Source of the DNA: Pyropia haitanensis
Taxonomy: Eukaryota > Rhodophyta > Bangiophyceae > Bangiales > Bangiaceae
Length of the DNA stretch: 64,000 bases
Direction of reading: 5' to 3'
Assembly: GCA_008729055.1 (NCBI GenBank)
Contig: SDUX01000002.1
Location: 3,561,874-3,625,873, forward strand
Part shown: positions 34,888 through 56,330 of the stretch, piece after piece
Layout of the letters: every line of letters starts with the position of its first letter
Position numbering within the stretch: position 1 is the first letter of the stretch
Made by a program: the position numbers and the translations under genes
The notes under the pieces: model-generated
Databases searched by the model: none
The model's input: the letters and a program-made list of their open reading frames with translations, nothing else
Told to the model about the DNA's origin: nothing

Positions 34888-34918
<31 letters not shown>

Positions 34919-35297
34919 GGTCCGCGGCGGCGGCGGCGGCGACCGAGGCGGCGGTGGCGGGGATGGCCACCGCGCTGCGGGAGGCGGTCGCCGCGGCGGC
35001 GGCGACGCTCGTGGACGCGGTGGCGGACGCGGCCGCCGCGGGGGAGGCCGCCACGACCGGCGTCGCCGCGGCGGCCACCACCCAGACGGCGGCGGTGGCC
35101 GCCGCCATTGCCGACGCGGCCACCACCTTGAACCGGGCGGCCGACGCGGCGGCCGACGCGGCGGCCGCCGACGTTGACGCGACCGCCCGGCGGGGGGTGG
35201 CGCTGCGGGCGGGCGTAGCCGCCGCGGCGGCCGACGCGGCGGCGGCCGCCACCACCGCGGCGGAGCGGTCCACCGCCGACGGCCACGCGGCGGCCGT

Positions 35298-35328
<31 letters not shown>

Positions 35329-36077: not shown

Positions 36078-36108
<31 letters not shown>

Positions 36109-36308
36109 TGGTGGTGGTGGTGGTGGCGCCACCGCCGCTGGTGGTGGTGGGGGGGGGGGGCGGGGGCGGGGGGCAGGCCCCGGCGGCCGCCGTTGCGGCG
36201 GGCGGCGACGGCGCCCAAGGCACGGACGGGGGTGCTGGGGGGGGAGGGGGGGGCGGCGGCCGCCCGTCGCGTGCCGCCGCCGCCGCCGCCGCGGCGGCGA
36301 GGCCGTGA
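32253..36308 (+). CDS. kinesin-5 (BimC/Eg5-type) motor protein with alanine-rich tail
   Basis: Plus-end spindle motor family. The N-terminal motor runs from about 32530 to 33870: VQVVLRCRPL; P-loop GSTSSGKT (32929-32952, a GxxxxGKT variant of GQTGTGKT); switch I NAASSRSH; switch II LVDLAGSE; and YRDSKLTRLLQDSLGGRT. The neck TLDYASRAKSIRNRP and the following DGVYLPPDQY are kinesin-5 hallmarks. The remaining 560 or so residues are over half alanine, with Asp, Thr, Val and Arg, instead of a classical coiled coil. ATG 32253 is in another frame; the change falls in the C15 run 32362-32376. Further changes near G runs 35721-35747 place the end at about 36308. Poly-Gly inserts sit in motor loops. 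Confidence 0.82.
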
Positions 36309-36835
36309 CGGCCACTGTGGGGGTGGAGGGGGAGGGTTGGGGGGGGGGGTGGGGGGGGGAGGGCGTCGGCAACGGCGGCGTGGACCGGCCGCCGCGGGTT
36401 TTTTTTTTTTTTTTTTTGTGTGTGCCGCCGATGCGGTGGTGGCGGCCGCCCCGCGCGGGGCGTGGCGGCCGGGCGGGACGCGACGGTGGCGCCGCTGGCG
36501 CCGCGGTGTTTGTGGCTTGGCGCGCCGCGGCCGTGGCGGTGGTGGTGGTGGTGGTGGCGGCGGCGGCGACGGCGACGGCGGCGTCGGCGACGGCAACGAC
36601 GGCAATGACGGTGGCCACGGTGGCCACGGTGGCGGGCCGCGTTGGCAGGCGGCGGCGGCGGCGGCAGTGAGGGGCGCGACTCTGGCAGGCGACCCCCCCC
36701 CCCCCCCCCGCTCCCCCCCCCATCTCCCCCTCCCCCTCCCGTCACCCGCCGTCTCACCAACAGCGCCAGCGGCGGCGGCGGCGGCCCGGAGGACGCCGCC
36801 GCCGCCACCCCCCCCCCTCCCCTCCCCCGGCACGA

Positions 36836-36867
<32 letters not shown>

Positions 36868-38728
36868 GCCGCGCGCACGGCGGCGGCGGCGGGCACGGGC
36901 GGCGGTGTTCCGCCGCGGGTGGGGTGGCCGGGTGGGTGGGGGGGGGGGGAGGGGGAGTGGGGGGGGGGGGGGGGGGGGAGGCGCCCCGCGGCGCGGGTGG
37001 TGACGGTGGGCGCCGCGGCGGTGTCGGCCGGGGGGTGGCGGCGGCGGGCGGGCGGCGGCGGCGGGCGGGCGGGCGGGCGGGCGGCGGCGGGCGGCACGGG
37101 GCGGGGGGGGTGGGCGCGGCCGGCGTGGCCGGCGTGGGTGGGCGTGGTGGCGTGGGGGTGGGTGCGGCGGTGGTGTGGCGGCGCGCTCGGGGGGCGGCGG
37201 GGCGGGCGGGTGCAAAAAGCAAAAAAAAAAAGCAAAAAAAAGCAGATAACCCTGTGGTCACCGACGCGAAGGACGGCCGCGCGGCGCGGCAGCGCGCGTC
37301 TCCTCTGCACCGTTGCCATGGATGCGCCGCGCCGCCGCGACGCGACGGGCCGCCCCCGCGGGGTACCCCCGCCCCTACCAGACGGACCGCCAGCCGCGCG
37401 GCGGCGGTGGCGGCACGACCCCACACGGGCGCGCCAGCCGGCCGGCCGCCCGCGCGCCGGCCGCTGCCGGCCGCCGCGGCGGCCGGCCGCCGCGGCCGAC
37501 CGCCCCGCACCGGCGGGGCGGGTTGGCCGCGCGGGTCCATCGCGGCGGCCGGCCGGCGCGTGGCGCGGCGGCGACGGCGGCGATGCGCCGGCGGGTCGCC
37601 CATGGGACGCGCCGCCTGTCGCCCCGCGGCGCGGCTGGCGGCGGCCCGGGCGGCCATGCATCGTCCGTGCCGGCTCTCCGTCCTGCCGCCCACTGCGCTG
37701 GGTCCGCCGCCGTCGGTCCGCGGCGGCTGCTCCCGCCGCCATCGCGTCCGCCGCGCGAATGGGGACCCGCCCCACCGCCGCCGCTGCGCCAACCGCCCGC
37801 GCCACCGCACCCGCGGCGTCTATGGCCCGCGGCACGGGCGAGGGTTGCGCACGCCGCGAGCGCCGGCCGACACGCCCGCCACGCGAGAGGGGGGCTGCTG
37901 GTCGGTGCCGGCGACACGCAGCGGATGGTCTTGGCCGCCGTGCGCCGGGAGGAGCGACGACCGCCGCGGCCCGTCCCGTCGGGGCCCGCCCCCCACAGCT
38001 CGACGCCCGCGACACGGCCAACGGGAGTCGGAGGGCGCGGCCGCACGGCGCGCACGCGCCGGCCAGCCGCCGCCCGTCCCCCGTGCGTCGTAGCAAAAGG
38101 GAGACCCGCTCCGCGGCAACGGGCAGCAACCACGGCGGGGGACGCCGAGCGCCGCCAAAACCCCCACCGCCATCGCCAACCGCCGCGTGCACCATCGGGG
38201 CGGACACGGGGCGCAGCAGGGGCGGCGGCAACGCGCGTTCCCCGGCGGTGAGCCCACTCCCTAGACGCAGCTTCCCCGCGCCGCCGTGCGGTGCCCCGCC
38301 CCGACCTGTTCCGAGTCGTGCAGCCCCGCCGCGGCGTGGTCCTCGACAACGTCCGCCCCGCCGCTGGGACGCGGCCGGCCTACCAGCGCCCAGGTGTGTG
38401 CACAATGCCACCTGCTGTCAAGACAGCGGAATTGGTGCTGCCCCCCGTCCGGTCCCCAAGCGGACGCTGCCACCGCCCGCAGCCCCTGCCAAGACGACCG
38501 CTGCCGCGCGCAGCTTGGCGAGGCTGACGCGGGGACACACCCGCGAGCACAGGGGTGCAGGCCGGCCCCCTTCTCATACAGGAACCGTGACGGTGGGGCT
38601 CGATGCTGGCTCCTCGGCGCTCCTCAGGCACGGCCGCTCACCAGCGACGGCGGCTGCAGGCTTGAGCAGCACCCCTGTTCTTTCGGGGGAGGAGGGCGGG
38701 AAATCGTCGTATATACTACACTCATTCG
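36309..38728. other. no confident gene; GC-rich low-complexity block
   Basis: Follows the kinesin. It has a T19 tract (36399-36417), many C/G runs and an A-rich patch with three A tracts (37213-37245). Long frames exist on both strands because stops are rare, but none shows family similarity. The last few hundred bases drop to mixed composition. Confidence 0.4.
36399..36417 (+). repeat. T19 tract downstream of kinesin stop
   Basis: Isolated T homopolymer in very GC-rich DNA, about 90 bases after the inferred kinesin stop. Similar tracts follow PTOX and DVR. Confidence 0.85.
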
Positions 38729-38816
38729 ACGTGGGGGGACCGCCACCCCTCTGGAATGGTCATTCAGGGGGGGTCCCCCCGGTCCCCCCAGGATTAGGCC
38801 GGTCCCCCCACGTTAG
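38729..38816. repeat. inverted GTGGGGGGACCG repeat cluster (left)
   Basis: ACGTGGGGGGACCG at 38729-38742 and its reverse complement CGGTCCCCCCACGT at 38800-38813 flank about 57 bases that contain two more CGGTCCCCCC-like copies. The same motif cluster recurs at 56360-56604. It is likely the ends of a transposon or a MITE. Confidence 0.65.
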
Positions 38817-39772
38817 GGCGAAACCGAAGTGAAAGTTAACACATTCACAAAGCTTCGCTGGTACTTCTCGGCACCGGACTTGCGAGGCCTATTCCCCGAG
38901 CTGGGCGGCGGGCGTGCACGCCACGCCCACGTGGTCGACCCCGTCCTCTCGTCTCACCACCCGCCGTCGCCCCCGTCCACTCGTCTCCTCACCACCCGTC
39001 GTCGGCCCCGTCCTCTCGACTCCTTCCCCCTCCCCTGGGCCTTCTGGTCTGCGGCTTCCGTGGGGTTGTGTCCCCCCCTGTCCCCTGCAGAGGCATGCAG
39101 CGAGGGCGGCTCGCCCCCCCGCGCCCCTCTCCCCCCATCAATCCCCCCCCCTCCTTCCCTCGAACCCCCCCTGTCGGCGGTCGCCATCGTTGTGCCGTCC
39201 AACAACGCGGACCCGTTTGCGGCGCTGACGGGTGGCTGCGGCTGTCGGGGGTAGCTTGCCTTGGCCGCACGTCGCTGGTGCTATACGTGGCGGCGACGGC
39301 GTGCCATCTGCTATGGTCGTCGCTCACACCGGAAACGGGAGGGGGGCAGTAAGAGAGGAAGAGGGGACGGTGACGGCCGCTGCGGGGGAGTGGGGGGGTT
39401 GGGAGGGAGGGTTGGCCGCGCTGCGGTCGTGGCTGCGCGGCTGAATCTTGCGGCGGGCGGGCGGGCGGGCGGGCAGCGGCACGCAAGCGGCGGCGGCGCG
39501 TTCGGAGGGGGGAGCGAGGGGACGGGGGGGGGTGGGGACGGCCGCACGGACGGCAGGGGTGTGCGCGGCGTAGCGCGGCGGGGGGGGGGGGGTGCGCCGC
39601 GCGCGCGTTCCCGCACTGCACGGAAGCGCCTGGACCGCAGCCGGGCGGCACACGCGACCCGCCCGCCATCACCTGCGCCGCCCCCCCCCCCCCCCGTACG
39701 CACACTCCCCGTTGCTGGCGCTCGGCGAGTCGCCGCGGCGCCCCACCCCCCCCCCCTTTGAGGCGTCCCCCC
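38817..39772. other. intergenic, 3' side of FG-GAP gene
   Basis: Pyrimidine-rich sequence with an imperfect tandem repeat of about 30 bp at 38939-39025 (CCCGTCC(T/A)CTCGTCTC phrases). Several G runs occur at 39500-39600. No gene recognised. Confidence 0.4.
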
Positions 39773-40140
39773 CTACTCGACTTCACCACCACCCGCCGCG
39801 AGGCGCCGCCCCCCAGGCGCTGCGAGCGGCGTGCCCCCCCCCCCTGTCCCCCCCCTCCGACCACCGCCGCCGCCGCGGCTGCCGCTGCCGCTGCCGCCCG
39901 AGCCCGGCGTGCTGTCCACCATCACCCCCGCCGCCGACGCGCTCGCCGTCACGGCCGCCACCGCCGCCGGCGCCTCCCCCCGACCGGGGCGGGGGCCCCC
40001 CGAGGCACCCCCACTGCCACTGCCACCACCTTCACCGCTGCCGCTGCCGCCACCGCCGCCGCCAACGCCGACACAACCCCCCTCCCCACCACCGTCACCG
40101 CCGCCGCCGCCACCACCACCACCACCACTGCCAGCCAACC

Positions 40141-40175
<35 letters not shown>

Positions 40176-41088
40176 CGCTCGTACAGGTACACTGCGCCGC
40201 GCTCGGTGTGGTAGCCCGAGCTGCCGACGGCGATGAGGCCGGCGCCGCCGCCCACCGCCACCGCCACCCCAAAGTTGTTGCGGATGCGCACGCCCCCCGG
40301 GCCGGGCTCGTCTGTTTAGTCGGGGGGGGACAGCACCGTCGGCGCGCCCCAACCGCCGTCGCCGCCGCAGTCGCCGTCGCCGTCGCCGCCCTCCTCCGTC
40401 CGTTCGTACACCACCACCCGCCCGTGGTGGCCGCGCACCCCCCGGGCGCCCACCGCCAGCACTCCCCCGTCGGCGGCGAGCGCCGCCCCCACCGCGTCGC
40501 CCGCCCGCGCGTCCGCGGGCGGCCACAGCGGGGTGGCGGCCGCCCCCCACCCCCCCCCCCCACCGGCGCGCCGCCCGCGGCGGCGGCGGCGGCGCCCGCC
40601 GCCCACCCGCCCGCCCCCGGCGGGGGCGACACCACCCACACGCCCCCGCGGCCGGCGGCGTGGCCCGGCGCGCCGACCGCGAGGGCGCCGTCCCCTGCCC
40701 AGGCACAAGCGTAGCCCGCGCCAGAGCTCCGCACGGGGGGGGTCAGCGACCCCGCCGGGCGGCCGGCCTCGGCCGCGACCGTGCCGGGCAGGTCGACGCG
40801 CGTGGGTGCGCCCCGCTGGGGGCTCCCGGCGGCGCCGCCGTTACCGCCCACCCCGCCGGCGCGGGTGTAGACCCACACGGCACCGCGGTAGGCGCCCGCG
40901 GACGGGGCGCCCACCGCCAGCGTCGCCCCGTCGGGCGACAGGCAGACGGACGCGCCAAAGCGGGCGGCGGGGGGGGCGGGAAAGGGGCGCCCCCGCCGGT
41001 GGCGCGCCGTGGGCGGTCCGCCTTCGGGGGGGGGCGCAGCACGGCGGTGGTGAGGGGGGGGGGAGCGCCGCCGCTGGAAGGAGGGGGA

Positions 41089-41119
<31 letters not shown>

Positions 41120-41329
41120 CCCCGCCGCCGCCTTCGGGGGAGCGCCCGCGCCCGCCGACGCGGCGGCGGCCGCCGCGAGGGCCACGGCGGCGGCGGCCGC
41201 TGCCGCTGCCGCCGCCGCCTCCGCCCGAGGCAACGCCCGCGGCCGCCGCCGCCAGCGCGTGCGCCGCCGCGGGGGGGGGACGCTGGGGGGGGTACGCGCC
41301 CGCCCGACAGGGCAGTCCACACCGGCCAT
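39773..41329 (-). CDS. FG-GAP (integrin-alpha-like beta-propeller) repeat protein
   Basis: At least four FG-GAP-type blades can be read on the minus strand: FGASVCLSPDGATLAVGAPS with GAVWVY; GYACAWAGDGALAVGAPG with GGVWVV; GDAVGAALAADGGVLAVGA with GRVVVY; and NNFGVAVAVGGGAGLIAVGS with GAVYLY. A plausible start at 41329 gives an Arg-rich then Ala-rich leader that could be a signal peptide, so an extracellular or cell-surface protein is likely. Blades 2 and 3 are in different frames (C11 run 40551-40561). Between blades 3 and 4, which share a frame, there is an in-frame TAA at about 40316, so the gene may end early or be decaying. Divergent from the SMARCAL1-like gene. Confidence 0.55.
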
Positions 41330-41818
41330 GGCCGCGACGGGCCGTACGAGGGAGGAGGAGTCGAAGGAGAGGGCGGGAGGTGGAGGGGGGGGAAGGGCGG
41401 GCGGGAAGGGGCGGAAGAGCAACCGCCGCCGACCTCTGTGGCGGCGTGCCGCCGACGGGGCGACGGCGCGGCCACGGGCAGGCCGACGGCGCGGTGGCGG
41501 GTGCCGTAAGCGACGGCAGCCGCGGCAGCGGCAGCGGCGGCCGCGGCGACGGCCGCGGCAGCAGCAACAACAGCCCGCGCGCCGTGTGCCGCCGACCGCT
41601 GCTGCACCCCCCCCTTCCCTACGCCCAGTCCTGGCTCGGCTGCCCGCTTGAAACCATTCCTGGTCCCCGCCGCCGCTGTCGTCCCCCGCTGCGCCGCCGC
41701 CACGGCCGCAAACGTCGCGGCCACCGCCGTCACGGGCACCCCCGCCGCCACTGCCGTCACCCCCGCCACCACCGCCGATGCCGTCCTCCTCGCCACCACC
41801 GCCGCCGGCGGCCCGACC
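41330..41818. promoter_or_regulatory. divergent promoter between FG-GAP gene and SMARCAL1-like gene
   Basis: A 489-bp gap between two start codons pointing away from each other. It is purine-rich (GGAGGAGG) on the plus strand near 41350-41420. No specific element identified. Confidence 0.3.
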
Positions 41819-42580
41819 ATGGGGGCGGCGGCCGCCGCGGACGGCGGCTCCGCCGCCGCCCGCCCGTCGGTGACGGGGGCGCTCCCCCCCCCCCGCCACC
41901 GGCGGCGGTCGCCGCACCCCTGCTGCCGGCAGCCGCCGCCGCCCCCGCCGCCACCGCCGCCCCCGCCGCCCCCGCCGCCCCCGCCGCCCCCGCCGCCCCT
42001 GCCCCCCCCACCTATCCCCCACCGGCGGTCCCGCCGGGTGCCGACCCGCCGCCGCCGAGGGATCCCCACCCGCCGTCCCCGCCGGCGGGGCGGCGATCGA
42101 GGGGGTGGTGCTCGCCACCGACGAGGTCGCTGCGATCGAGGCGGCGGTGGCCGCCGCGGAGCGCCGGGCGGCGGGCGGCGCCGCCGCGCCTGCCAAGGCG
42201 GGGAGGTGTGACGGCGACGCGCGCACCGCCAGTGAGGGGGTGCGGCCTCCGTCGCCGCCGCCGCCAACAGGCGGGCCAGCGGGGGCGTCCTCCGCGCGGC
42301 GCCCCCACCCCCCCCCCCCTCGCCACAGTGATGTTGGACGTCGCCCACGGTCGCCGCCTCGCCGCACGCGTCCACGGCGCGCTGCCGGCCGCCACCGCCG
42401 ACGCGGTGGCGGCGGCCGGCGACGTCGCCGCCGCCGCCCCCGGCACACTCACCTTCCCGGCGGCGGCGGCGCCGCGAGTGGCCGCCGCCCTGCAGGGGGG
42501 GGGGTCCGCGTCCTCCCGCTCCCGCGGTGGGTCGCGTCACTCGCCCCACAGCTGGCGCCGGGGTACACGCCGCCAGGGTG

Positions 42581-42615
<35 letters not shown>

Positions 42616-43395
42616 TGCCGCCGCCGGCGTCGGCGGCGGCGGCTTCCGCCGCGCGCGCGGGGCGGCGCGGGTGCCCCCCGGCGGGCACCGCCGGGGTCGG
42701 CGTCGACGCACCGCCCCGCGCGCCGCTTGCCCTCGCCGGCGCCCCCCCCCCTCCCCCTCAGCGGGCGCGGCCGCCCCTCCCCCCCCCCCTGGGCGGCCGC
42801 CCTCCACCCCGACGTTGTCGGCCGGCTGCTGCCGCATCAGGCGGCGGCGGTCACCGCCGGCTTTGCCCGCGGCGGCCGCCTGCAGCTCGCCGACGCGATG
42901 GGCCTCGGCAAGAAGGCGACGGCGCTGGCGCTGGCAGGCGTGTACCACACGCCGGCGGCGCCGACGCTGGTGCTCGCGCCGGCGTCGTCGCGCGTGCCGT
43001 GGGCGCGTGCCGTGCCCGTGTGGCTGCGGCCGGCCAACGCCCGCCGCGCGCCGCCGGTGGGGCGGGGGGCGGGGGGCGGGGGGGGGGGCGCCGCGGCGGC
43101 GGCGGCGGCGGGCGGTGGCGTGCTGGGGGCGGCCGCGGGCAGTGGCGTGCTGGGGGCGGCCGCTCCCGCCGGGGGGGACGGCCGTGGGGAGGAAGGGAGG
43201 AGGGGGGGGGGGGAGGGGCCGCCGGCGGGGGCGCCCCCGCCCCCGCGCCGGCGGCGGCGGCGGCCACGGCGGCGGCCGCCGCGGCGGGCATCCACGTGCT
43301 GTCCAGCGCCGCGGCGGTTGCGTCGCTGGTGGCGGCGTACGAGGCGGGCGCAACGGCCGCCGCCGCGGCCGCCGCCGCCGCGGCACGCCCCGCCC
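41819..43395 (+). pseudogene. SMARCAL1-like SNF2 annealing helicase, 5' half (interrupted)
   Basis: Start at 41819 (gaccATGg). A Pro/Ala-rich leader is followed by a HARP-like segment (MLDVAHGRRLAARVHGAL and LTFPAAAAPRVAAAL, 42340-42490). The first SNF2 lobe follows: LHPDVVGRLLPHQAAAV, LADAMGLGKKATALALAGVY and TLVLAPASSRVPWARAV. The nucleotide-binding DEMGLGKT has become DAMGLGKK, losing the Thr and the preceding Glu. The frame changes several times at homopolymers. Protein similarity stops near 43395 in an Ala-rich stretch and resumes at about 55490, after 12 kb of foreign sequence. With the gene split and key residues altered, I call it a pseudogene. Confidence 0.65.
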
Positions 43396-43614
43396 GAAGG
43401 GCTCACCGCTGGCTTCGCCAGACCCGGGATTGGCCTTCCCATTGGCTAGTCTCATCTCGGATCGGATCCGGACTCAACTGACAGTGGTTCTGTAGTGTAA
43501 GACCAGTCCGCGCCAGATTGAGTCTGCACGAGAAGAGGAACGCAACCCATCCCATCCCACAAAGCGGTCCTTTGAAACCCTTTCTGGCGGGAGCATGTAT
43601 CCAAGGCCTTCGGT

Positions 43615-46600
43615 ATGGCCGTCTCGACCGTCCGTTGCGCTGGTCGACGACGTTGCCGGCGTTGCCGGCCTGTTTACCGGCGAGTGTGCCATCATGCTGG
43701 CGCCCGCCAGAGTGTTCACCTCTTTAGTGCTCCCGTCGAGGGGGCTCCACCGACGACGAGGGACCTGGTCGCTGCCATGGCGCCGCGAGCCCGACGTGCT
43801 GCGCGCACTCTCCGTGCTGGAGCTGCAACCCGAGGCGCGCCTGCCACCCCTCGCCGCGGTGCCGTTACCCCTCCCGCCTCCGCCCCCCCCCCACCCCTAC
43901 AAGCCGGAGCCGTCCCATCTCTTGGCGGTGTCTGCCCCCCCCCCTACAGCAATGCCCTCCCTCCCCCCGGCGACCCAGGCTCCCCCTCTCGCGGTGGAGC
44001 TGTCCTTCCTTTGAGCGGTGTCACCCCTCCGCATCGATTCGGAGCAGACATTCCTCCTGGCGGCTGCACTCCTTCCCCTCGTCGCGGAGCTGTCGCGCCT
44101 CCCGCCGGCGCTACCCCTTCCCGTCTCGGCGGAGCTGTTGCACCTCTGGCCGGTGCCGCTCCTCCCACTCGCCGCGGAGCTGTTGCACGTACGGCGAGCT
44201 CAACTCCTCCCTCTCGTGGCGGAGCTCCTGCCCCCCCAGCCAGCGCCTCGCCCCCCCCACGTCGAGGATCCGGCGTGCCTCCCGCAGGCGGCAACCCTTC
44301 CCGTCGCGGCGGAGCTGTGACACCTTTCGCCGGCATTGCACCTCCCCCTCGTCGCCGAGCCGTCCCGCTTCCAGCTGGCGCCGCGCCTCTCCCTTGCGGC
44401 GGAGCTGTGGCACCTCTCACAGACTCCGCGCTTCCCTCTCGCGGCGATGCTGTCGCACCTTCCGCCGGAACCGTGGCTCCCCCTCGACGCGGATCTGTCG
44501 CACCTCCCGGTGGCGTCAACCCCCCCCCGCTCGGCGGAGCTGTTGCACCTCCCACCGGCTTCGCGCTTCCCCCTCGCGGCGGTGCTGTGGCACCTTCCTC
44601 CGGCACCGCCGCTCCCCCTCGTCGCGGATCTGTCGCACCTCCCGGCGGTGCCCTCCCTACGCGTGGCGGAGGTGTCCCCCGACCTGAGGCCCGCCGCTCG
44701 TCTGGTGGGCGGGCAGTACTTCCTCTTGGCTTTGCTCTTCCTTCCGGTACTCCCGCACGTTCATCCCACGCAGGAACGCATACGAGCGCAAGGAGCCATG
44801 GCGCCAGTTTAGGCACCCAGGTCGCTGCTGAAAGCGCAGCGGGCAACAGAGGCAATGGAGCACCTGACGCCATGGAGGCTTTCATGCGCGCTTCAGTGGA
44901 CACCTGGACAGAGGCGGATGGCACAGGTGTTTCCGTCGCCGCGGTGAGCCCCTACCTAGCTCCAGTGTCGCTTGCGCTTCTAGAGAGCCCTGAGACGCAT
45001 CGTCTTGAGCTTCTCGCTCTGTGCGAGGCGAGAGCTCTTCCCGTGGACGCCAACGCATCGAAGGCGGCGTTGCGCGCCAGGCTCGTGTCATTCAACCTCT
45101 CAACGCGCAACGTGTGGTGCTCCCGTGTGCAGCTGCTCGCCAAACACGTTTGTCACGATGCGCTGGTGGACAGGGCGCACATGCTTCCCTTCCAGGCCGC
45201 CATTGCACACCGAGCGCCGGTCCCTGCTTCTTTCGAGGCTCCTTCCTCGGTCTCCCGGGACCCCCCCCCTTTTTCTTGGGCACCTTCTTTGTCAGTGGGC
45301 ACGTCGCCCCCCGCTTGTGTACCGCCCACGCCGATGGCGATGGCCGCTGTACCGGCCGAGCAGCGGCCAAGTGCAGGCGCGGGAGCTCCGTCTTCCTCAC
45401 CGCCTCCTCTGCCGCCTCCTCCTCCTGCTCTGCCGCTGCGATTGCGCCCTCCCCTTGGCACTACTGCTCGACCCACTCCTGGACTACATTCTCCAAGCGC
45501 TCATCTTGGTGCACCACCTACGTCCTCGCTCTCGCCTGTAAGAGAGGTCCCAGCGTGCACGAGCGCGGCGGGTCCAGCGCAGTTTGCTTACGAGCTGGCG
45601 CGGAGCCTACACGAGCGCGACGTGCAGACGCAGCGGCAAGAGCATGTGGTGTCTGCTGGGCTTGAACAGCTACAAGCGGCTGTTGTCAACCTGGGAGGTG
45701 TGCAGCAGTCCGCTGCGTACTCGCAGACCGTCCAGCTGACAAGAATGGAGCACACGCTGGTCGGTCTCGAACGAGCAAGGACTGGCGCCATGGTGCGCCC
45801 TCGCTCGCCTTCCCATGCTGGAATGACCCAGAAGAAGAAGCGGCCCAAGCGTGGAAGTGCTCGAGCAGTGGAGCTGCTGACTGAAGCGGCTGGTCCTGCT
45901 CCACCTCCTGGTGCAACTCGTGTTCCGCCGGGCCCCAGTGCCGCTCGTGCTGACGCCTCTGGACAAGCAGACCCTTCTTCTGCTGGGGCACCCGCACGGC
46001 CGACCAGACTGGTGTTCATCCCTCTGGTGCACGGCCTCATGATGGAGCCGGAGCTGTTGAGCGACACAATGGGTACGGCCCCGCTGTTTACGCAGCTGAC
46101 GTACATCTTGCGCCTGGCGCACGTTTCGCCCGGTGAGCCGGGCATCTTCGGTTCGTACGCTGTCAAGCGATTGCACTCCGTTGCTCAGGGTCGGGTGGAG
46201 GAGGACGCTGCTGCTCGTGGGGAGCCGTCGGGAGTGAACCTGGAGAAGGCGGCCAAGATTGACAACGTGATTGCAAACAAGGCGGACATCTACATGCGCA
46301 TCTTGTGGTGGGTGCACGCCGTCCTCCCTGAGAAGCTTGGAGGAGAGGCGCAAGCGGGAACGGCTGAGGTAATGCGAGCTATCACCCTCGGACCATCTGA
46401 CGTGGACAAGCTCTCCGCTGCCCTTGACGAACAAACAGCGTTTTTGTCCAAGACAGGATTCAAGGTGCCTGCCAAGATGACGTACAGTGCGTTGCGCAAG
46501 GTGCTCAACAAGCTTGCCGTGCACGACCGCGCTGTGTCCCGGGTCGAGCTCATACTTTCTTCTTCGCCATTCAAAGAGAGGCTTGCAGCGACGGTGCATA

Positions 46601-46644
46601 ACATTGGCAGCGCGTATCTTGAGCCTACTGCTCCTCCGCAGTAA
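43615..46644 (+). CDS. SAP-domain protein with 15-residue tandem repeats (mobile-element gene)
   Basis: Unrecognised family with three visible parts. Residues from about 100 to 350 are some 15 tandem 15-residue repeats of the form RRGAVAPPAGATPPP. A SAP-like DNA-binding motif follows near 44990-45090 (HRLELLALCEARALPV then SKAALRARLVSF). The C-terminal third is a structured helical region (FIPLVHGLMMEPELL, HVSPGEPGIFGSYAVKRL, ADIYMRILWWVHAVLPEKL) after a short basic patch KKKRPKR that may be a nuclear signal. ATG 43615 opens the frame; ATG 43777 (gctgccATGg) has a better context and may be the true start. The SAP and basic motifs suggest binding of nuclear DNA, perhaps the element ends (inference). 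Confidence 0.65.
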   Translation: MAVSTVRCAGRRRCRRCRPVYRRVCHHAGARQSVHLFSAPVEGAPPTTRDLVAAMAPRARRAARTLRAGAATRGAPATPRRGAVTPPASAPPPPLQAGAVPSLGGVCPPPYSNALPPPGDPGSPSRGGAVLPLSGVTPPHRFGADIPPGGCTPSPRRGAVAPPAGATPSRLGGAVAPLAGAAPPTRRGAVARTASSTPPSRGGAPAPPASASPPPRRGSGVPPAGGNPSRRGGAVTPFAGIAPPPRRRAVPLPAGAAPLPCGGAVAPLTDSALPSRGDAVAPSAGTVAPPRRGSVAPPGGVNPPPLGGAVAPPTGFALPPRGGAVAPSSGTAAPPRRGSVAPPGGALPTRGGGVPRPEARRSSGGRAVLPLGFALPSGTPARSSHAGTHTSARSHGASLGTQVAAESAAGNRGNGAPDAMEAFMRASVDTWTEADGTGVSVAAVSPYLAPVSLALLESPETHRLELLALCEARALPVDANASKAALRARLVSFNLSTRNVWCSRVQLLAKHVCHDALVDRAHMLPFQAAIAHRAPVPASFEAPSSVSRDPPPFSWAPSLSVGTSPPACVPPTPMAMAAVPAEQRPSAGAGAPSSSPPPLPPPPPALPLRLRPPLGTTARPTPGLHSPSAHLGAPPTSSLSPVREVPACTSAAGPAQFAYELARSLHERDVQTQRQEHVVSAGLEQLQAAVVNLGGVQQSAAYSQTVQLTRMEHTLVGLERARTGAMVRPRSPSHAGMTQKKKRPKRGSARAVELLTEAAGPAPPPGATRVPPGPSAARADASGQADPSSAGAPARPTRLVFIPLVHGLMMEPELLSDTMGTAPLFTQLTYILRLAHVSPGEPGIFGSYAVKRLHSVAQGRVEEDAAARGEPSGVNLEKAAKIDNVIANKADIYMRILWWVHAVLPEKLGGEAQAGTAEVMRAITLGPSDVDKLSAALDEQTAFLSKTGFKVPAKMTYSALRKVLNKLAVHDRAVSRVELILSSSPFKERLAATVHNIGSAYLEPTAPPQ
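43990..44690 (+). repeat. 45-bp tandem repeats in SAP-protein gene
   Basis: About 15 diverged 45-bp units, with the phrase CGGAGCTGT(T/C)GC recurring at the unit boundary. They encode the Pro/Ala/Arg 15-residue repeats. Confidence 0.75.
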
Positions 46645-46802
46645 AATAGCCCCTCCATGGGATGCACGTGCTGGACGAGTAGAGTGGGGCGTCAAGGTAG
46701 CGGTGGCTCGGTTTGATGCATAAAACAGGACGGGGCTTTATAGCAGTTCATCTAAACTCGTCCAGGCATGTGTTATGCACACACGCTCTATCAATGCCCA
46801 CA

Positions 46803-49141
46803 TCACTCGCTCCCATCGCCGTCGTCAACCGCACCTGACCCGTTCCGCAAAACAAGCGTGACCTCACAAAGCATACGGGCCAAGCCATCCACGGCCTTGC
46901 GCTCGTACGCTGCAACTTGCTCATAAGAAGGGCCCTCGTCGCTCGACTGCACAATGTCACGCAACTGTCGGAGGTTGGACAGCACCCACTCGCTGTGCGC
47001 CTGAGTTACTTGAGCGACGGTCTGCATCACCGCGTCAACGTGGTAAGAGCGCAAGGTAGAGCGTAGGGTTCCGCGAGCATGCATGTTGGTGAGGTAGACC
47101 AGGAAGCTGTCGCTGTTGGCCTTCCAATCGCCCAGACGCATCACCAGCTCGTAATCACCGGTGCGGTCGAGCAGGTCCTGCGCACCACCACGTCGAAAGC
47201 CGTACATACGGCAAGGCCGCTGTCCGTTGACTCTGCTCTCTCCAATACGAGCACTGTCCGCGGCAAAGCGGGTGTGAATCTCATTCTCGGACATGGGCTT
47301 GATAGCCCCAACAGCTCCACGGCGAGTACGTGCAGTGGTAGAGGTGAAGAGCGGGGTGTCGGCAAGAACGAGAGGGTCCATGGCCACCAACGGGTGCTCC
47401 ATCGCCAAGCTGACGAGACCTTGATACAAGCTCGGCAGGTTCACGTGTTGCGCTGAACAGCGGACGACATTGGAGCGGCCCAGCTCTTCCACCTCCTCGG
47501 CTGCGACCTTTGCAAAGCAGCTGTAGATTCGAAGCACGAGCACGTCCGACGTTCTCGTCATGCTCTTCGACACTCGGACGACCACGTTGATGAATCGATG
47601 ATGCCCATGGCTGCGAGAGACAACATAAAAAGAGTACAAACGCGTGGCGAACAGAAAAAAAAGAACACGTACGAGGCAGCCTCAACGTCAGGGAGCAGCT
47701 CTGATAACACAGACCGCGAAAGAATGGACAGGATAGGGACTCCCTCCACCACCTCAACAATCATGACTTACATGTTCATAAAGGACTGGTTCTGGGGCAG
47801 GCCGAGGTCAGGCAGGGAGACGTCCTTGTGCTTCATGCTGATGAGGGAGAAGGGTCGCGCGAGCGTGGTCCAAGCAAAGGCGTACAGGCAGTACACAATA
47901 AAGTCGCACTTGGCTAAGGAGGAAGGGACCTCGGCGCGTTCGGGAGGCCCAGTCCCCGGTGCTGCACCGGCTGCATCAGTCGGCGTCGTAGAGCCTGCCG
48001 CAGCACCAGCTCCGGGAAGATAGGACATGACCAACGTGGCATACAAACGGTGCATCATGGCCATAGTGACTGGAGCCGACGTGACTGACTGCTCCCCGTT
48101 CACTCTCGCGTCCTTCTCAGCAGCGCTCTTGTACCGCTTGACGACGTCAGTATGCATGGGATTCCCGATCATTGTGCCCGGCTGCTCCCGAACCTTCGAT
48201 TCCTCGGCCCTCTCCGCGACGCCCTTCTGCTTCCACTCGGAGTGCCGCTGCTCGCAGTCGGGAACAATCTTGGGACCACCACAGGTTCCCTCCATCAAAG
48301 CCTCCCCGAAAAGGAAGACAAGCGCCGACGAGTAGTCCTCCAGAGTCAACACAGTGATAGGAGCTGAAGAGCCGGCCACCGGGTAACCACGCCGACGCGC
48401 CTCCAAAAAAAGTGTGATGTAGGACCGGGTGTCGGGTGTCATACAACGAAAGACCCGTTGCACGCGGCGGTCGAGCTCCCCTTGCGTCGGCGGAGGTTCA
48501 TGGGGGTCGCGGCACACAGTGCGACTCAGGAAGTCGGCGAAGGATATAGCCGTTCGCCGGCGAGTTGCCCACGTCTTCACGGTGGCGTTCGTCCCCTCAA
48601 CACACGCGGCCGTGATCTCCTCCTCGTCGGCATCGATGTCGCGCCTTGTCTTGCTGTTGGACGCCTGCGGCCACGTCGCCACTGCTGCTCGCATCCACGC
48701 GCACGTCGACTTGTTCTTGTTTACGCGCAGCTGGGCCAGAGTAGGCGGCCTCTGGTGCTTGTAGCCCATCTCAATCGTATTACCACCCGTCCCGGCTGCT
48801 GGCATGAAGGAGGGTGGCGCCCCTGACGCGTTGACGACACCATCTCTGCGTCCAGGTCGTATGACGCCGTTCATGCGTTCAGACGTGTCCGGCACCGGTG
48901 GGGACTGCTCAACTTGCTGCTGCTCACCGACAAGCCCACCACGGAGCTCTTGACCTTGCCCATCGCGGGGAGGATCGCGGTCCTCTCTTGCGGCCTCTTC
49001 CGTGAGTCTTTCAGCCAGCTCCGCAGCTTGGAGCAGAGGGGAGATAGGGATGCCGTGCACACTTGCCAAGGACGCTGAAGCCAGATCCCGGCCGGCCTCA
49101 TCAAGCAGGGAGCCCATCGCAGCATCGCTTTCCGGCTCCAT
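46803..49141 (-). CDS. tyrosine recombinase of the mobile element (two exons, 725 aa)
   Basis: Site-specific recombinase/integrase fold, inferred to move the element. Exon 1 is 47772-49141, exon 2 is 46803-47610; the 161-bp intron (GTAAGT...CGCAG) joins in phase 2. Catalytic-domain landmarks: the first Arg R429 in FAWTTLARPFSLISM; the second box MYGFRRGGAQDLL, where the usual His of HxxR is Tyr593 and the Arg is R596; the helix MRLGDWKANSD with Trp619 replacing the second His; and the nucleophile Tyr629 in SFLVYL. A SFRRGGA plus GRWKSD pattern like this is known in many Crypton-type and phage-like recombinases. The N-terminus is acidic and low complexity, then a core-binding domain (about 200-330). 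ATG at 49141 chosen. Confidence 0.82.
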
Positions 49142-51676
49142 CGCAAACGATAGTCGCAGCCCAGCGACACCGCGCAGCAGCCAAAAAGTAGTAGGCAGGC
49201 AAAGGTGGACGCAGGCAGCGTGGCCTCCTGACCAGCCGCAGTGAGAAGCCAATCGTATCGAACCCCCAGGCAGCTAGCGAGCACGTCAAACTGCGGGCAG
49301 ATGCTTGCGATTACCACAGGGGCGCCGCACCGGGGGCGGCAGCAACTCGTGTCCTGGGGGACTGGCGGAAGGTGGTCGGGGAAGTGGGGGGAAGGCGAAC
49401 AGCCGATGGCTGGAGAAGCAGACGTGCGCAAGCCTCACCGCCCGCTCAGTCAGCGGCAGCGGCGGCAGCCGTCCACCGCCGACTGCACACGGGCCTCAAC
49501 GCGGGACGCAAGCTCGCAGCTGGCCAGCTGCCTGCTGCTGTTCCTCCGGCATGCCCTCTCCGTCGAGCCGCCACCCACCAGTAGCAGTGACGAGGGCACC
49601 TGCCGCGGCCCCATGGCTGCATGTGGGTGCACGGTGGCTGCAGTACGTGTGGGGTGAAAGCAAACAGGGTCGTACGCATGGGGCGAGCAGCTGCCGCCCT
49701 GACGACCGTCACGAGGGCGATGAGTGGGGACGTGCCCTCCGAATCACAGGTTGGGAACTGTAGATGGGGAGGAGGACACGAGAACGGTGATCAGCGCACA
49801 AAGGGGCACGACGTTTGGCTGTCTGCTGCGGTTGGGCGGCCGGCGCCCTCCGATGAAGCGGGCAGAGAAAGGGCCAGCAGGCGGTCAGACAGCAGGATTG
49901 GTTAGAACAGGTCCGGTCGAGACGCGGGCGTGCATGCGGCGCTGGTACCCGACGGGTGCACGGGTCACGCGAGGGCCTCTGTGGGGTGGTGGACGCAGGC
50001 AGTAGTGCACCATTGCCGGAGGCAGCGCGATGGATTCCCGTGCGGCGTCGACGTAACAGCGCCTGCGGTCCCACTGTCGGATCGTTGAACGTACTTGAGT
50101 CATATCTCCGCAGCGGCCCAATGTCCTATGCGCCACCGGCAGCTCTCCTCCTCGGGCGCGGGGAACGGGACAACAGAGCGCCTCGAAGCGCGTAACCGGT
50201 AGATCGAACGGTGCGGGCGGAGGCCGAAGTGGGGGCTGACGCTTGGTGCAGATTCTCCCCGCTCGAGTCAACGCGTGGAACCGGCCGCGATTGAGGCCTT
50301 ATGGCAGAGTGAGCCCGGCACACCGCAACCTGGCCCACCACACAGGTGGGATGTGACAATCCAATCTTTGGCCGCGGCCACGGCTCTCAGCAGCCGCTGT
50401 GATGGCGTACTGCTCTAAAAGACGCCTCTTTTTGAAAATTTGGACGGATTGCATGGCTGCTTGATGCACTTTGAACGGCTGACGTTCAAGTCGCAGTACT
50501 GGCCACCGATGTTGACCCTTGCTCGACCTCACATTCCACGCCCGCGACCATGAGCGCCCTCAAAGCGGGCACCTGGACGTACGGCAGCATGATCATTCTG
50601 CCACATGCCTTTGGAGGTACTCATGATCACATTCTCAGAAAACTAATGAGCGTGGGGCGTGTTGTGTTGACTCGCACCCCACGACGGCATGTGGAGCGCG
50701 CGCCAAGTGACATTCCTTCCGATGTCCTACCTGATAGCGGTCGCGCTTGTTGTCTCAGATGGTGCAGTGCGCTGCGTCTCCTGGTGCGCTCAGTTCACCG
50801 CTGTCCCACAGAAACACTTCGACCGTCACGCGCGGCAGAAGGCGGCTCTCCGACAGCACCAGCCGGCTCGAGGGGGGAACTGCTCACATGACGACAAGTG
50901 CATTGCAGTACCGCTGGACATAGTGCGTCGATCACTGCTCCGCGAGAGACCGAGCCATCCTTATCTGTGCACATTCTCAGTCGTCTCGATCACCTGCACC
51001 GGAAAGAGACGACACAGACACCTGTCCACGCCGGTGGGGTTGCAGTGAAACGCTGAAGGCTGTGGTGTTGCTCATAGCAGTCTCCATGCCGAGCCTGTCG
51101 CGCCTGGGCACAGTAGAGAGTCGCTTCTGAGCGCCGTTGCTACATGAGAATAAAAAAGCAGCCAGGGTTCGCAAAGAAAGGGTGGTAACCGTGCACTGAA
51201 AGACCTATTGCGGTGGCTCATGATTCTGACGGAAAAACCGCTCACTTGGCTTCTCCTCGGACTGTCATCCTCGTTTGAGTAACAGGACCTACCGACCGCT
51301 CCGGAGTCGAGGTGGTCTCTCCTCACGACGTCCACAGCCACGGTGAACCGAGAGAGCTTGTCCGAACAGTCTGCATACAATCCCCAAGAGAGTTACTGTG
51401 CACCGCGAGCAAGTTCTACACCACACAAAGTCCTGCTAGGACAGAAAGTTAGATGACTTTTCGCACCGATAGCAACCGGACACGCGGCATTCATTGCCAC
51501 GAAGAAGACTACTGATCTGCTGCGTGATGCACGTGTCACTTGGGGGTGCCCGCGCAGCCCATTGGCATTGCACGCTGCCCGTCCTTGATGCCCGCCCGTT
51601 CTCGGCCTTTCCTCTCCACCAAAGCTCCGCAGAAGGTGTTTCCCGTCTGTCGCACACTCTTCCTAGCATCCTGTTC
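49142..51676. other. non-coding interior of the mobile element
   Basis: About 2.5 kb between two divergently oriented element genes. Mixed composition, only short frames without similarity. It presumably contains both promoters and possibly regulatory or recombination sites. No clear repeat found. Confidence 0.35.
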
Positions 51677-52498
51677 ATGGCTGTTTGCAACAATGATGCC
51701 TATGGACTGGCAGGAGTCGCAGCAGCGGTATGCGTGGTAGCGGTTAGCTACGTCGCCGCTCGCGCGGTTCTTTCTCTAGCAACTCGAGCGCGGGCAACGT
51801 CTGTGGCGGACGCAGCAGCGTCTGTGGAGGCGGTGCCTGGGTCTGTGGCGGCGGCGCCGGCCACTCTGGCGGCAAAGCCTCCGTCTCTGGCGGCGGCTCC
51901 TACGTCTTTGGCGGTAGCGCCAGCGCCATTGGCATCCGCGCCTGGTCATTCAGCTGTGAGAGCTCCGGCTGCCAGTCTGGCTGCTGCGGGTCGGGCTCCG
52001 CCGCAACGTACCGCTGGGGGCCATCGAGCTGCCCAAGTCGCCGCTACGGATGGCAGCAGCTCTAGTGGAGCAACAGACGGACGTGACAGTGGCGAGCAGG
52101 CTGGTGGGGCGGCGGGGACGCACTCTGTCTCGGTGTTGCTGGACTACGACACTCTTCATGACTTGCGTCGCAAGCTGTGCTTCGTTTGTCCTTGTGAGGT
52201 CCGATGCTTCAACCGACGACTGTCGGAAGAGATCGAGCGCGTGGTATGGGGCTGCTTCACCCATCGGGGCTTGGTCAAGATGTGCTTGCGCGGGCTGGGT
52301 TGTCCCGTGTGTGAGGAAGCTGGCCCTGCCCCGCGCGCTCTCGTCTCCTTCAAGAAGCTCATCCCGCACATGGTCAACAACTTTTGGATGGACTGCTACC
52401 ACAAGAGCAACCGTGAGGAGCACAATGTCTGCTCCGAGCATAGCAAAGCAGGCTTCAATGACCACCATCGGCATCGTACCCACGCGTTGATTGATTAG
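51677..52498 (+). CDS. Cys/His-rich protein with N-terminal hydrophobic segment (mobile-element gene, 273 aa)
   Basis: Unrecognised. The start at 51677 gives MAVCNNDAYGLAGVAAAVCV and a single hydrophobic helix (a signal anchor or membrane segment, about residues 10-33). Six 7-residue repeats of the type SLAAAPT follow (about 49-90), then a Ser/Gly-rich linker. The C-terminal 100 residues look folded and rich in Cys and His: CFVCPCEVRCF, CFTHRGLVKMCLRGLGCPVC, CYHKSNREEHNVCSEH and DHHRHRTH. This suggests metal binding, possibly a treble-clef or zinc-finger nucleic-acid-binding module. It sits tail to tail with the PIF1 gene, 95 bp apart. Role in the element unknown. Confidence 0.55.
   Translation: MAVCNNDAYGLAGVAAAVCVVAVSYVAARAVLSLATRARATSVADAAASVEAVPGSVAAAPATLAAKPPSLAAAPTSLAVAPAPLASAPGHSAVRAPAASLAAAGRAPPQRTAGGHRAAQVAATDGSSSSGATDGRDSGEQAGGAAGTHSVSVLLDYDTLHDLRRKLCFVCPCEVRCFNRRLSEEIERVVWGCFTHRGLVKMCLRGLGCPVCEEAGPAPRALVSFKKLIPHMVNNFWMDCYHKSNREEHNVCSEHSKAGFNDHHRHRTHALID
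51821..51946 (+). repeat. 21-bp tandem repeats (six units)
   Basis: Units of the type TCTGTGGCGGCGGCGCCGG encode the 7-residue Ser-Leu/Val-Ala-Ala-Ala-Pro-x repeats of the Cys/His-rich protein. Confidence 0.8.
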
Positions 52499-52593
52499 AG
52501 CTTGCGTAAAGGTTGTGCGGCGTTGTACTCATTCTGCATTGTGCTGTTAGGATGCAGACCCGCTACGTTGATAGGAACAGCTGTTTATAAGCA

Positions 52594-54585
52594 CTACAAA
52601 GCGGAGAGAGAAGAATGGAAAGAGAGCGCATCGGGGCTCACGAGGATCTTGGACTCATCGAAGCCCACTAAGAAGTTGTCGCACAGACGCCGTGTACGCG
52701 ACAGTGCAGACAGCACTTGTCCAGGCGCAAAGGCTTCACTCAGGTCTGCCGCAACTCGCTTCAGGGTCCACCCCTGCGCGCCATGGACAGTGGAAGCCCA
52801 GGCAAGCACCAGAGGAAGCTGCCATCTCGTCGCAGCCTTTGAAACCCCGTCGAAAGCCATGACGCGGGCCTCAACAGGGCCAATTACAATATGGCTCGTA
52901 CCCCCTCTCGGAAGCTCAAACTCCACCGTAGGTAGGCGTAGGTGCCCAACGAGAGAGAAGGCTCGCACTGTCCCACGTGACCCAGCGGCCACACCTTTTG
53001 AAGAGAGCACGTTGGATGACACGACTACCCGGGCACCCACCCGCAGCTTGAGGACACGTACCGACTTGGTCGCATTGTTTAGCAGGTGCGTTGCCCGAGT
53101 CTTGTTGAGGTACGGTGCAATGCACCGGTCGACTGCTTCAAACGTCTCATCTGGCCCCGGCAGCCTCTCCAGCTCCTCTTGGTTTTTGTCGGCAGCCGAT
53201 GACTTCAAGCAGAAGAGCCACACGCAGTCGTCAGGGGGCTTGATGAGAGCCTGTCTAGTTGCCAGACGGGCCACGTCGTCCTTTGTGTGCTTGCCCAAGC
53301 GCAGTCTGAGCAGCAGCCCTAAGTAGTCAGGGTCTCCAGCCTGTCTGTAGTGCGACTTCAAAAGCACGGCGCGGCGTCCAAAGACGCGGCCCCAGACAGC
53401 ACTCTTGAACGCATAGTCGCCGCGGGGGGGGCAAACCTGCAGGAAGTCTCCCGCAAGAAGGACGACGAGACCGCCAAACGGTGACCGGTCTCCGCGCACA
53501 TGCTGCAACACCTCGTCTAAGCGACAGTAGAAGGCTGCCGGTAGAGTTGTTGCCTCGTCAATGACGATGACTTGAGCGCCCGACATGCGCGCCTTAGCCG
53601 CACGTGGGATGACCTGGTTCAGCACCACGGCCAGAGGGGAGACCTCATCGTTGTGCCCGTTACGAAACCCGGCCCAAGCGTGCGCCGTCACACCGTCGAT
53701 GAGCGCGGCGGCCGCACCTGAACTCCCACAGACGGCAACGCTCAAGCCCGCCAGTAGAAGCTCCTGCTTGACCTCGTTCACAACATGCGTCTTCCCGCAG
53801 CCCGGCGGTCCCGTGAGAAACACGCTGCGCTTGGCATGGAGCATGTTCAACACGTGCCGTGCGGGGAGGGAGAGCAGGGCGCCGCTGGCTGTCGATGTCA
53901 GCGGCAGGGGAGGTCCTGCTGTCGTCAGCCTTGCTCTCTTCGCAGGGGACTCGTACCTCCACGCCACTGGTTCCGGCTGCGCTGCAGCAACGGGCGGGAA
54001 GGGCTCCACCGGCTGCCAACAGAGTGACTCTCCTAGCCGTGTCGCCACCATCCGAGGGCTCCCTCCCGTGCAACTGCGCTTGCTTGTTGTCCGACTCGCC
54101 GACACTGGGACCACCTCCCCGTCGCTCTTGCCCCTCACGCCTTTCACGTGCCGTCGGGCTGCGGAGCCTTCAGATGTGGCTGCGCTCAGCCGGCCAGATG
54201 GCAGTCCAGCCTGACGAACCGCTGCTACCAGGACACCTTGCAGAGAGGTGTCGTCTGCGACGGAGCGCAGGAACAGGATGCAGTCAGCAGCGGCGGCGAG
54301 ATCAAACAGTCGTGCGCCCGTGGCCAGCTCAGCTCGAATCACTCGACCTTCTTGGGGAAGGAACAGAGACGGCAGTGTACCGTCGTCGCTCGGTCCGGAT
54401 ACACCGAGTGCCCATCGGTGTGCACGACGGCCAGAAGAAAAGGTGCGCAAGTAGAGAGACCATGGTCTTAAGATGTGACGCATCAGGTTCCCAGCCTCTT
54501 GACGACCGGGTCCGCTCAGAGTGTGGACCAAAGAAGCGGCTCGGACGTTCGGGTAGCGACAGCTTATGAACAGTGGTGTACACAT
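52594..54585 (-). CDS. PIF1-family DNA helicase (mobile-element gene, about 663 aa)
   Basis: Superfamily 1B 5'-3' DNA helicase. All motifs are present: I, GPPGCGKT with Lys265; II, VIVIDEATTLPAAF with Asp343-Glu344; III, LAGDFLQVCPP; IV, LLKSHYRQ; the PIF1-type LKLRVGARVVVSSN; V, WASTVHGAQGWTL; VI, GQVLSALSRTR. It ends FDESKILVSPDALSFHSSL like PIF1 proteins. The start at 54585 (MCTPLFISCRYPN) is chosen because upstream of it the frame runs through G-rich low-complexity DNA; the frame itself extends to 55122. Rep, nuclease and OTU domains typical of Helitrons are absent. It could support replication, recombination or resolution of the element; it could also be a captured host gene. Confidence 0.85.
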   Translation of the reverse strand: MCTPLFISCRYPNVRAASLVHTLSGPGRQEAGNLMRHILRPWSLYLRTFSSGRRAHRWALGVSGPSDDGTLPSLFLPQEGRVIRAELATGARLFDLAAAADCILFLRSVADDTSLQGVLVAAVRQAGLPSGRLSAATSEGSAARRHVKGVRGKSDGEVVPVSASRTTSKRSCTGGSPRMVATRLGESLCWQPVEPFPPVAAAQPEPVAWRYESPAKRARLTTAGPPLPLTSTASGALLSLPARHVLNMLHAKRSVFLTGPPGCGKTHVVNEVKQELLLAGLSVAVCGSSGAAAALIDGVTAHAWAGFRNGHNDEVSPLAVVLNQVIPRAAKARMSGAQVIVIDEATTLPAAFYCRLDEVLQHVRGDRSPFGGLVVLLAGDFLQVCPPRGDYAFKSAVWGRVFGRRAVLLKSHYRQAGDPDYLGLLLRLRLGKHTKDDVARLATRQALIKPPDDCVWLFCLKSSAADKNQEELERLPGPDETFEAVDRCIAPYLNKTRATHLLNNATKSVRVLKLRVGARVVVSSNVLSSKGVAAGSRGTVRAFSLVGHLRLPTVEFELPRGGTSHIVIGPVEARVMAFDGVSKAATRWQLPLVLAWASTVHGAQGWTLKRVAADLSEAFAPGQVLSALSRTRRLCDNFLVGFDESKILVSPDALSFHSSLSAL

Positions 54586-55489
54586 GGTCGGTAGACAGTC
54601 GACGCGTAGGCGGGAAGGAACGAGGCAGATGACGCAGGATGATGCGGAGTCGAGGCGGGGAGAGCCGGGCAGGCAGAGCGGGGGGGCGAGGGGGAGTAGG
54701 GGGGGGGAGGCGGGGAGTGGTAATGAAGGAGCAAGTGAGCGGGGAAGGGGGGGAGGGGGGAGGGGGGGGGGTGGGGGGGGGGGTGGAGGGAGCTCGGTGG
54801 AGGGTGGTGCAAGGGCGAACGAAGGGGACGAGGCGAGAGGAAGGGCAGACGGACGAGGGGTTGGGAGGGCGGGAGGGGGATGGGGGGAGGGGGCTCGAAG
54901 ACGGAGGCGGGGAGGGGATTGTCCAGCCAGCCAAGGAGTCATCGGCGACAGTAATGGACGGGCGGAGCCCGAGTGGTGCCGCGGCGAGAAGGGCCAGGTC
55001 AAGGCCAGCGGTGCCATGCCAGCGAACGGGGCGGGCGTAAGGGCGCGCACAACGCACCAAGAGGCGTGGCGCGGGAAAGTCGGGGCGGGCGTCCCAGCAG
55101 CAGTGACGCGGTTGCGCGCCACGGGCGGTAGCGCGCTGCGCTTCTCCGACCGGCCGCGTACGCGCCAGTCCTGCCATCAACTGGGAAAAGGCGGGCAGCT
55201 GGGGGGTAGGGACACCTGGCCGGGCAATCATCGCTGCACATGTCCTGGCGCCATGGGACAGCTGACCCGATCGACCGGGAGGTATTGAATTCATACAGGA
55301 TGTCCGCGGCTGTCCAAACATTGGAGTTGCGAAACGTACCTATCTGGGTGGGAACTTCTTGTACGAGGGGGTGCTACCATCTCCGTGGCCTGGCAGGGCG
55401 GATTGCCATTCTACCCGATCTGACTCAGACTGACTCCAATCTGACTGTTCCCGCCGGGACTGACGGTGCCCTGCGACGGCGGCCGTTGC
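54586..55489. other. right end of the mobile element, no gene
   Basis: Upstream of PIF1 is a purine-rich (on the plus strand) GGGGAGG stretch at 54650-54910, then mixed sequence. Close to the host junction there is a cluster of CTGACT phrases (55413-55450: ATCTGACTC, ACTGACTC, ATCTGACT) that could be recombinase-binding repeats (speculative). Confidence 0.35.
55413..55465. repeat. clustered CTGACT direct repeats at the right junction
   Basis: Four spaced copies of (A/T)CTGACT or ACTGAC occur within about 50 bases immediately before the GC-rich host sequence resumes. Confidence 0.5.
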
Positions 55490-56330
55490 GGCGGCCACGG
55501 CGGGGGGCGGCGGCGGGCGGCGGCGGCGCCCCCCCCCCCCCCCCCCCCCCGGGACCGGTGATCCCCCCCCCCGCCGCGGTCCGCACGTGGCGATCATGTC
55601 GTACGAGCTCGCCGCCCGCTTCGCGGCCGCGCTCGCGGCCGTCCCGTGGGGCGTCGCCCTCGTCGACAAGGCGCACGAGCTGCGGCACGCGGGCACGCCG
55701 CTGACGGCGGCGGCGGTGACCCTCCTCCGCCGCGTGCGCGTGCGCGTGCTGCTGACGGGGACGTCCGCGCTGGCGCGGCCGGCGGAGCTGTTTGTGCCGC
55801 TGGCGCTGATCTATCATGAGGGGGGCGGGGGGGGGGGAGGAGGGGTCACCGGGCGCGGAAGACGGCGGCGGCGGCGGCGGCGGGGGTGGCGGTGGTGGCG
55901 ACGGCAACGGCGGTGGGCGTGGCGGTGGCGGCGACGACGACGGCGGCGGCGGGGGGGACGACGCACTGGCGCCGGGGGAGGCGCGCCGGCTGCTCGGTGG
56001 TGGCTCCCTCGCGCCGGCCGCGGCCGCCGCCGCGTTGCTGCCAATGCCGCCGTCGCCACTCCAGTCGCCGCCGCTGCCGCCGCCACCACCTCCGCCGGCC
56101 GTCGCGTCGGCCGCGGCGGAGCGCGGCGCGCCCTGCGGCGTGGCGCTGCACGACGGGTCGTCCGCACCAGACGCGGCCGCGGCCGCGTCTGCGCCAGCGC
56201 CGGGGGGCGCTCCGCCCGCGTTGCCCGAGCGGGCGGCGCCCGCGCCCGCGCCAGCGGGAGCTCCCCGCTGCACGCTGCCGTGCAAGCACCTCCTTGTGCG
56301 GGCTGGGGCTAGGAATTATATGATCTTCGG
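55490..56330 (+). pseudogene. SMARCAL1-like SNF2 helicase, continuation of the interrupted gene, 3' truncated
   Basis: Picks up where the 41819-43395 fragment stops. HVAIMSYELAARFAAALAAV is followed by WGVALVDKAHELRHAG, RVRVLLTGTSALARP and AELFVPLALI, matching the SMARCAL1 order VIIDESH, LLSGTPAMSRPAELY. The DExH motif is DKAH, so the Mg-binding Glu is lost. Sequence after about 55820 is Gly/Ala low complexity and the second (helicase C) lobe is absent. GC-rich host-like DNA ends near 56330, just before the GTGGGGGGACCG repeat cluster. Confidence 0.65.

Follow-up and report, generated by a model that had tools for sequence, protein, structure and literature searches.

A 12,083-basepair block of DNA in the bangialean red alga Pyropia haitanensis is, in our judgement with high probability, an autonomous DNA transposon that belongs to a multi-gene family of tyrosine-recombinase elements. 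The block, one copy of a family that we call f1, lies in a stretch of 64,000 nucleotides (‘the window’, whose numbering is used below unless another contig is named). In the assembly used for the genome searches (52.9 Mb in 136 contigs), the window falls within contig C11. The element encodes a predicted tyrosine recombinase and a PIF1-family helicase, as well as two other proteins; in the literature searched we found no known mobile element for which this gene combination had been reported. The family is best read as a multi-gene and probably new group of recently active red-algal tyrosine-recombinase DNA transposons.

The initial annotation of this DNA had proposed that a large mobile element encoding a tyrosine recombinase and a PIF1 helicase is inserted at positions 43,400 to 55,460, and that other loci with the same gene set might be found. 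The insert is real, and both expectations were borne out by further copies, a base-exact empty site and a related family (f2, described below). Use of recombinase exon 2 as a genome query returned 15 matches, three of which are identical and correspond to the window, to contig C8 and to a second place on C11, so that two more full-length f1 copies are present. Alignment indicated that the three copies are alike from GCCCGAAGGGC (43,392) to GGTGCCCTGC (55,474) and that the sequences outside these points differ; the first 201 bases and the last 275 bases, each used as a query, were found at exactly three places with 100% identity. The two additional copies at unrelated sites therefore fix the ends of f1 (Table 1), and the recurrence of the same ends at three unrelated sites excludes misassembly of the contig at 43.4 or 55.5 kb.

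Table 1. Features of the f1 element and its insertion site in the window
Feature	Position	Strand	Details and basis
Whole f1 element	43392..55474	+	12,083 bp including GC at each end; both boundaries recur at the two other, unrelated sites
f1 left end	43392..43446	+	starts GCCCGAAGGGC; three-copy alignment
f1 right end region	55200..55474	+	ends GGTGCCCTGC; 275 bases, three places at 100%
ORF1	43615..46644	+	1009 aa; proline-rich 15-residue repeats, conserved C-terminal part
Predicted tyrosine recombinase	46803..49141	-	725 aa; two exons, 49,141-47,772 and 47,610-46,803; residue order, fold of a relative
Recombinase intron	47611..47771	-	161 bp, GT-AG; unchanged in three copies
Cys/His-rich ORF	51494..52498	+	334 aa from first TTG; open frame, probable homology to f2 and L039
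PIF1-family helicase	52594..55122	-	842 aa from first GTG; Pfam PIF1 E 2.3e-19, PDB PIF1 chains E 5e-43, relatives
Putative SNF2-like host gene, left part	~42886..43032	+	profile positions 22-76, frame 1; E 0.15, below Pfam cut-off
Putative SNF2-like host gene, right part	~55593..55796	+	profile positions 108-173, frame 0; E 0.0093, below Pfam cut-off

The three copies share approximately 99.8% identity (100% at both ends) within unrelated flanks. The copy in the window and the other one on C11 are each 12,083 bp long and differ at 22 positions; 26 positions vary among all three copies, counted up to position 53,909 and with the C8 copy compared without a 1.3 kb stretch at its helicase end. 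The spread of f1 is recent. The C8 copy also holds a nested LTR retrotransposon of 7,367 bp, at the point matching window position 50,656, whose 861-bp repeats are identical and which has a 5-bp duplication (GTGGG).

The initial annotation had also called attention to a different base composition within the insert. That contrast exists, but stretches of ordinary genes at 4–13 and 24–31 kb of the window have the same 58–69% GC, and composition is therefore no evidence for insertion. Two other stretches of the window (13,700–23,000 and 31,000–43,000) are unlike these ordinary-gene stretches: their GC content is approximately 72–87%, and open frames of great length overlap on the two strands.

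The C8 copy was inserted into a repetitive sequence, for which 22 near-full-length matches, 90–99% identical, occur at other places in the genome. We joined the flanks of that copy (200 + 200 bases, with one GC kept) and used them as a query for the empty site. The joined sequence matched 22 other places over 400 bases (399 in one instance) and a 23rd over 305, some of the matches differing by a few bases in length; of 27 matches in total, the remaining four were the filled site, matched as its two halves, and two short fragments. Eight of the 22 places were read over 80 bases around the junction, and all eight were free of gaps, with zero to three differences and with GC at the junction. Insertion at C8 thus added the element and one GC, with nothing lost, and insertion of f1 is precise at this one site. 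At most the 2-bp GC could be counted as a target duplication; the presence of GC on both sides of all three copies favours a shared recombination core instead. The C8 target repeat itself, seen at C8:1,233,810-1,234,027 and 1,253,458-1,253,663, is perhaps another transposon.

At the window site, the gene split by the insert had been described as SMARCAL1-like. Collinear SNF2-domain matches are indeed found on the two sides of the insert, although nothing beyond SNF2 was recovered, and these weak matches (Table 1) would make the interrupted gene SNF2-like. Removal of 12,081 bp (leaving one GC), which is a multiple of three, keeps frame 0 open across the join. The SNF2 block to the left, however, is read in frame 1 and that to the right in frame 0, so that an intron or a base-call slip in the GC-rich sequence between them must also be assumed, and the open-frame test therefore lends weak support. 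The usual reading at one position of SNF2 proteins is DEAH. The right half of the gene reads DKAH there, and the host gene may accordingly be decaying, or have diverged, independently of the insertion.

Four genes had been proposed for the insert, and four are found: ORF1 adjoins the left end, followed by the recombinase (on the opposite strand and split by an intron), the Cys/His-rich ORF and, adjoining the right end, the PIF1 helicase (also on the opposite strand). The label that found no support is that of a SAP-domain protein for ORF1, which gave no Pfam match to a SAP domain at E values up to 1; nor did pieces of the f1 and f2 ORF1 proteins at E values up to 10. The recombinase has residues of catalytic type in the order R429, K472, Y593xxR596, W619 and Y629; set against the R-H-R-Y tetrad these supply R429, Y593 (at the place of the histidine), R596 and Y629, with K472 and W619 in addition. 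No significant sequence match to it was found in Pfam, PHROG or the PDB. A partial fold model of one of its relatives resembles Cre and Xer with modest scores, and tyrosine recombinases account for 25 of the 50 structural matches listed for that model. In a Pfam scan of five ORFs at E 1, no match to a DDE transposase, Rep, Helitron, reverse transcriptase, capsid or polymerase family was found.

Two further families are recognizable in the same genome. Family f2 is represented by four left and three right ends, and CGG begins every one of the former and closes every one of the latter. Its genes are those for ORF1, the recombinase and PIF1, together with a probable homologue of the Cys/His-rich ORF. 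In the f2 element on contig C40 (~17.75 kb), ORF1, Cys/His and recombinase genes lie on the same strand and PIF1 on the opposite one, an order different from that of f1, so that genes have been rearranged between the families. A ~10.8 kb locus on contig C6 retains the f2 genes, with the recombinase partly missing and PIF1 in two frames; another on C6, with ORF1 and recombinase genes, stops short at the end of PIF1; and a more diverged C6 locus has ORF1 and recombinase but gave no match to PIF1 across 30 kb of sequence. C6 also carries a 2.8-kb f2 derivative with both ends and an ORF1 remnant containing a stop, and without recombinase or PIF1, which either transposed at this reduced size or was truncated after insertion. 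The Cys/His ORFs of f1 and f2 are likely to be homologous, as judged by a shuffle test in which 0 of 2000 shuffles equalled the comparison with an intermediate (L039, described below) and 90 of 2000 the direct comparison with f2.

Family f3 consists of a related recombinase at seven places, six of them with a 671-residue frame, together with six left ends, one of which is partial. No match to ORF1 or PIF1 was found in the stretches searched at three f3 loci, one of these searched in part. The sequence CCCATTGG is common to the left ends of all three families, located 47 bases from the end in f1 and f3 and 46 in f2. A 671-residue tyrosine-recombinase-like frame of f3 was also noted at L026:7867-9876, within a repeated region, and an f3 locus on contig C7 is adjoined by an element similar to the LTR retrotransposon nested in the C8 copy of f1.

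The genes of these elements are linked. All eight ORF1 matches listed (among at least eight in the genome) lie in element loci, one being the deletion derivative. PIF1 has at least 27 genome matches, the first six of which represent five loci at 48% identity or more; these five best loci among the matches listed (the three f1 copies, the C40 element and the C6 f2 locus) all bear a recombinase. The next five PIF1 matches extend over approximately 400 residues at 30–31% identity; the remainder cover less, with identity reaching 54% over 46 residues. Beyond this genome, relatives of the recombinase occur in Pyropia yezoensis (genes I4F81_000042, I4F81_011795 and I4F81_011879) and relatives of the helicase in Porphyra umbilicalis. 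In outside data a recombinase relative and a PIF1 relative were twice reported with a longest contig of equal size (11,042 and 9,869 bases), which suggests that the two genes share a contig. A contig from another assembly (L039, JAHDHX010000014.1) carries ORF1, Cys/His and recombinase genes in the f2 order; it is filed under a Candidatus Gracilibacteria MAG and is probably a misbinned algal contig.

DIRS-type retrotransposons combine a tyrosine recombinase with a reverse transcriptase. The f1 element has the former in common with them (PMC3212892) and differs in that its five ORFs gave no reverse-transcriptase match and that all three genomic copies retain the intron of the recombinase gene, which argues against an RNA step. 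In its manner of working f1 is like a Crypton or a Starship. As Cryptons are characterized in PMC3212892, they too have a tyrosine recombinase, no long terminal or inverted repeats and no long target duplication, and insert precisely at a very short common end sequence; the inverted arms of f1 are at chance level. Cryptons are moreover diverse, perhaps with several origins, and some carry a C48 peptidase (PMC3212892), so that their earlier description as recombinase-only was too strict. It is conceivable, if doubtful, that f1 is a large Crypton that gained passenger genes. It differs, however, in having four genes, including a PIF1 helicase, over 12 kb or more, and in direct repeats of 2–3 bp (GC in three copies of f1, CGG in f2) as opposed to the 4–6 bp given for Cryptons in that source. 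Its recombinase has no significant match to any Pfam family, and the recombinase relatives gave no Pfam match to DUF3504, the profile that alone stood for Crypton recombinases in our searches. The retention of ORF1 and PIF1 across diverged families is also unlike what would be expected of chance passengers. Accessory helicases are found in other DNA transposons (RecQ in Academ, SNF2 in Inton and Enton; PMC3627910), and f1 resembles these in having its own helicase beside a mobilizing enzyme; the helicase families are different, and the mobilizing enzyme of f1 would be a tyrosine recombinase.

Size, a recombinase with partner genes and precise insertion are also what an algal counterpart of the fungal Starships, with a captain-type recombinase and cargo, would display (PMC12134995), and the captain family DUF3435 is the sole Pfam family touched by the recombinase relatives. 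Those matches, found for two of five relatives and none of the other three, have E values of 0.17 and 0.26, below the cut-off and not significant. In that source the captain is the leading 5' gene, whereas the f1 recombinase is internal and not first at either end; the other f1 genes look like a fixed set and not like variable cargo; and the Starships described there come from Pezizomycotina, not from a red alga. We consider this reading improbable. Still less probable is a decayed endogenous virus, for example one of Polinton-like type from which the capsid genes have been lost. Tyrosine recombinases are present in some Polinton-like viruses (PMC4642659), but the capsid and DNA polymerase genes that mark Polintons and such viruses had no Pfam match among the five f1 ORFs; two pattern-based scans of viral contigs confirmed no relative, a search of viral structure models with a weak query model gave none at E 0.001, and the near-identity and open state of the copies are not those of decayed sequence. 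The least probable is an unusual Helitron with PIF1 as its motor and the recombinase as a passenger. A PIF1-superfamily helicase and the lack of a long target duplication are Helitron traits (PMC6431247), and the f1 helicase matches the Helraiser chain in the PDB at E 5.8e-17, but it is far nearer to PIF1 chains (5e-43), is a separate protein, and stands beside a recombinase, with no Rep (HUH) or Helitron match in the five ORFs scanned; f3, in turn, combines a related recombinase with a left end that is similar, and gave no PIF1 match in the stretches searched at three loci, one of these searched in part.

For an autonomous tyrosine-recombinase transposon, the recombinase would most likely cut both element ends, using Y629, and the element would be released, probably as a circle. 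It would then be joined to a short core of matching sequence in the target (GC for f1 and probably CGG for f2), and joining at such a core would make insertion precise, with no target-site duplication of greater length. Conserved partners in this process appear to be ORF1, PIF1 and the Cys/His protein, probably in end binding, unwinding or copying of the excised DNA, with copying the inferred part for PIF1 and end binding that for ORF1 or the Cys/His protein. More tentatively, and with rather less than even confidence, we suggest that these elements form a superfamily of their own among eukaryotic DNA transposons; the recombinase would excise the element, and the element's own PIF1 helicase would drive copying of the circle before reinsertion. 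If that is true, neither reverse transcription nor a Rep nuclease or DDE transposase would be needed for copy number to grow.

Tyrosine-recombinase transposons of eukaryotes are few and little tested. A recent and apparently intact four-gene element with exact ends, an empty site and a helicase partner makes both movement and multiplication of such elements open to study, and the f2 deletion derivative could act as a test substrate. The family adds a type of mobile element to those of the nori-group seaweeds.
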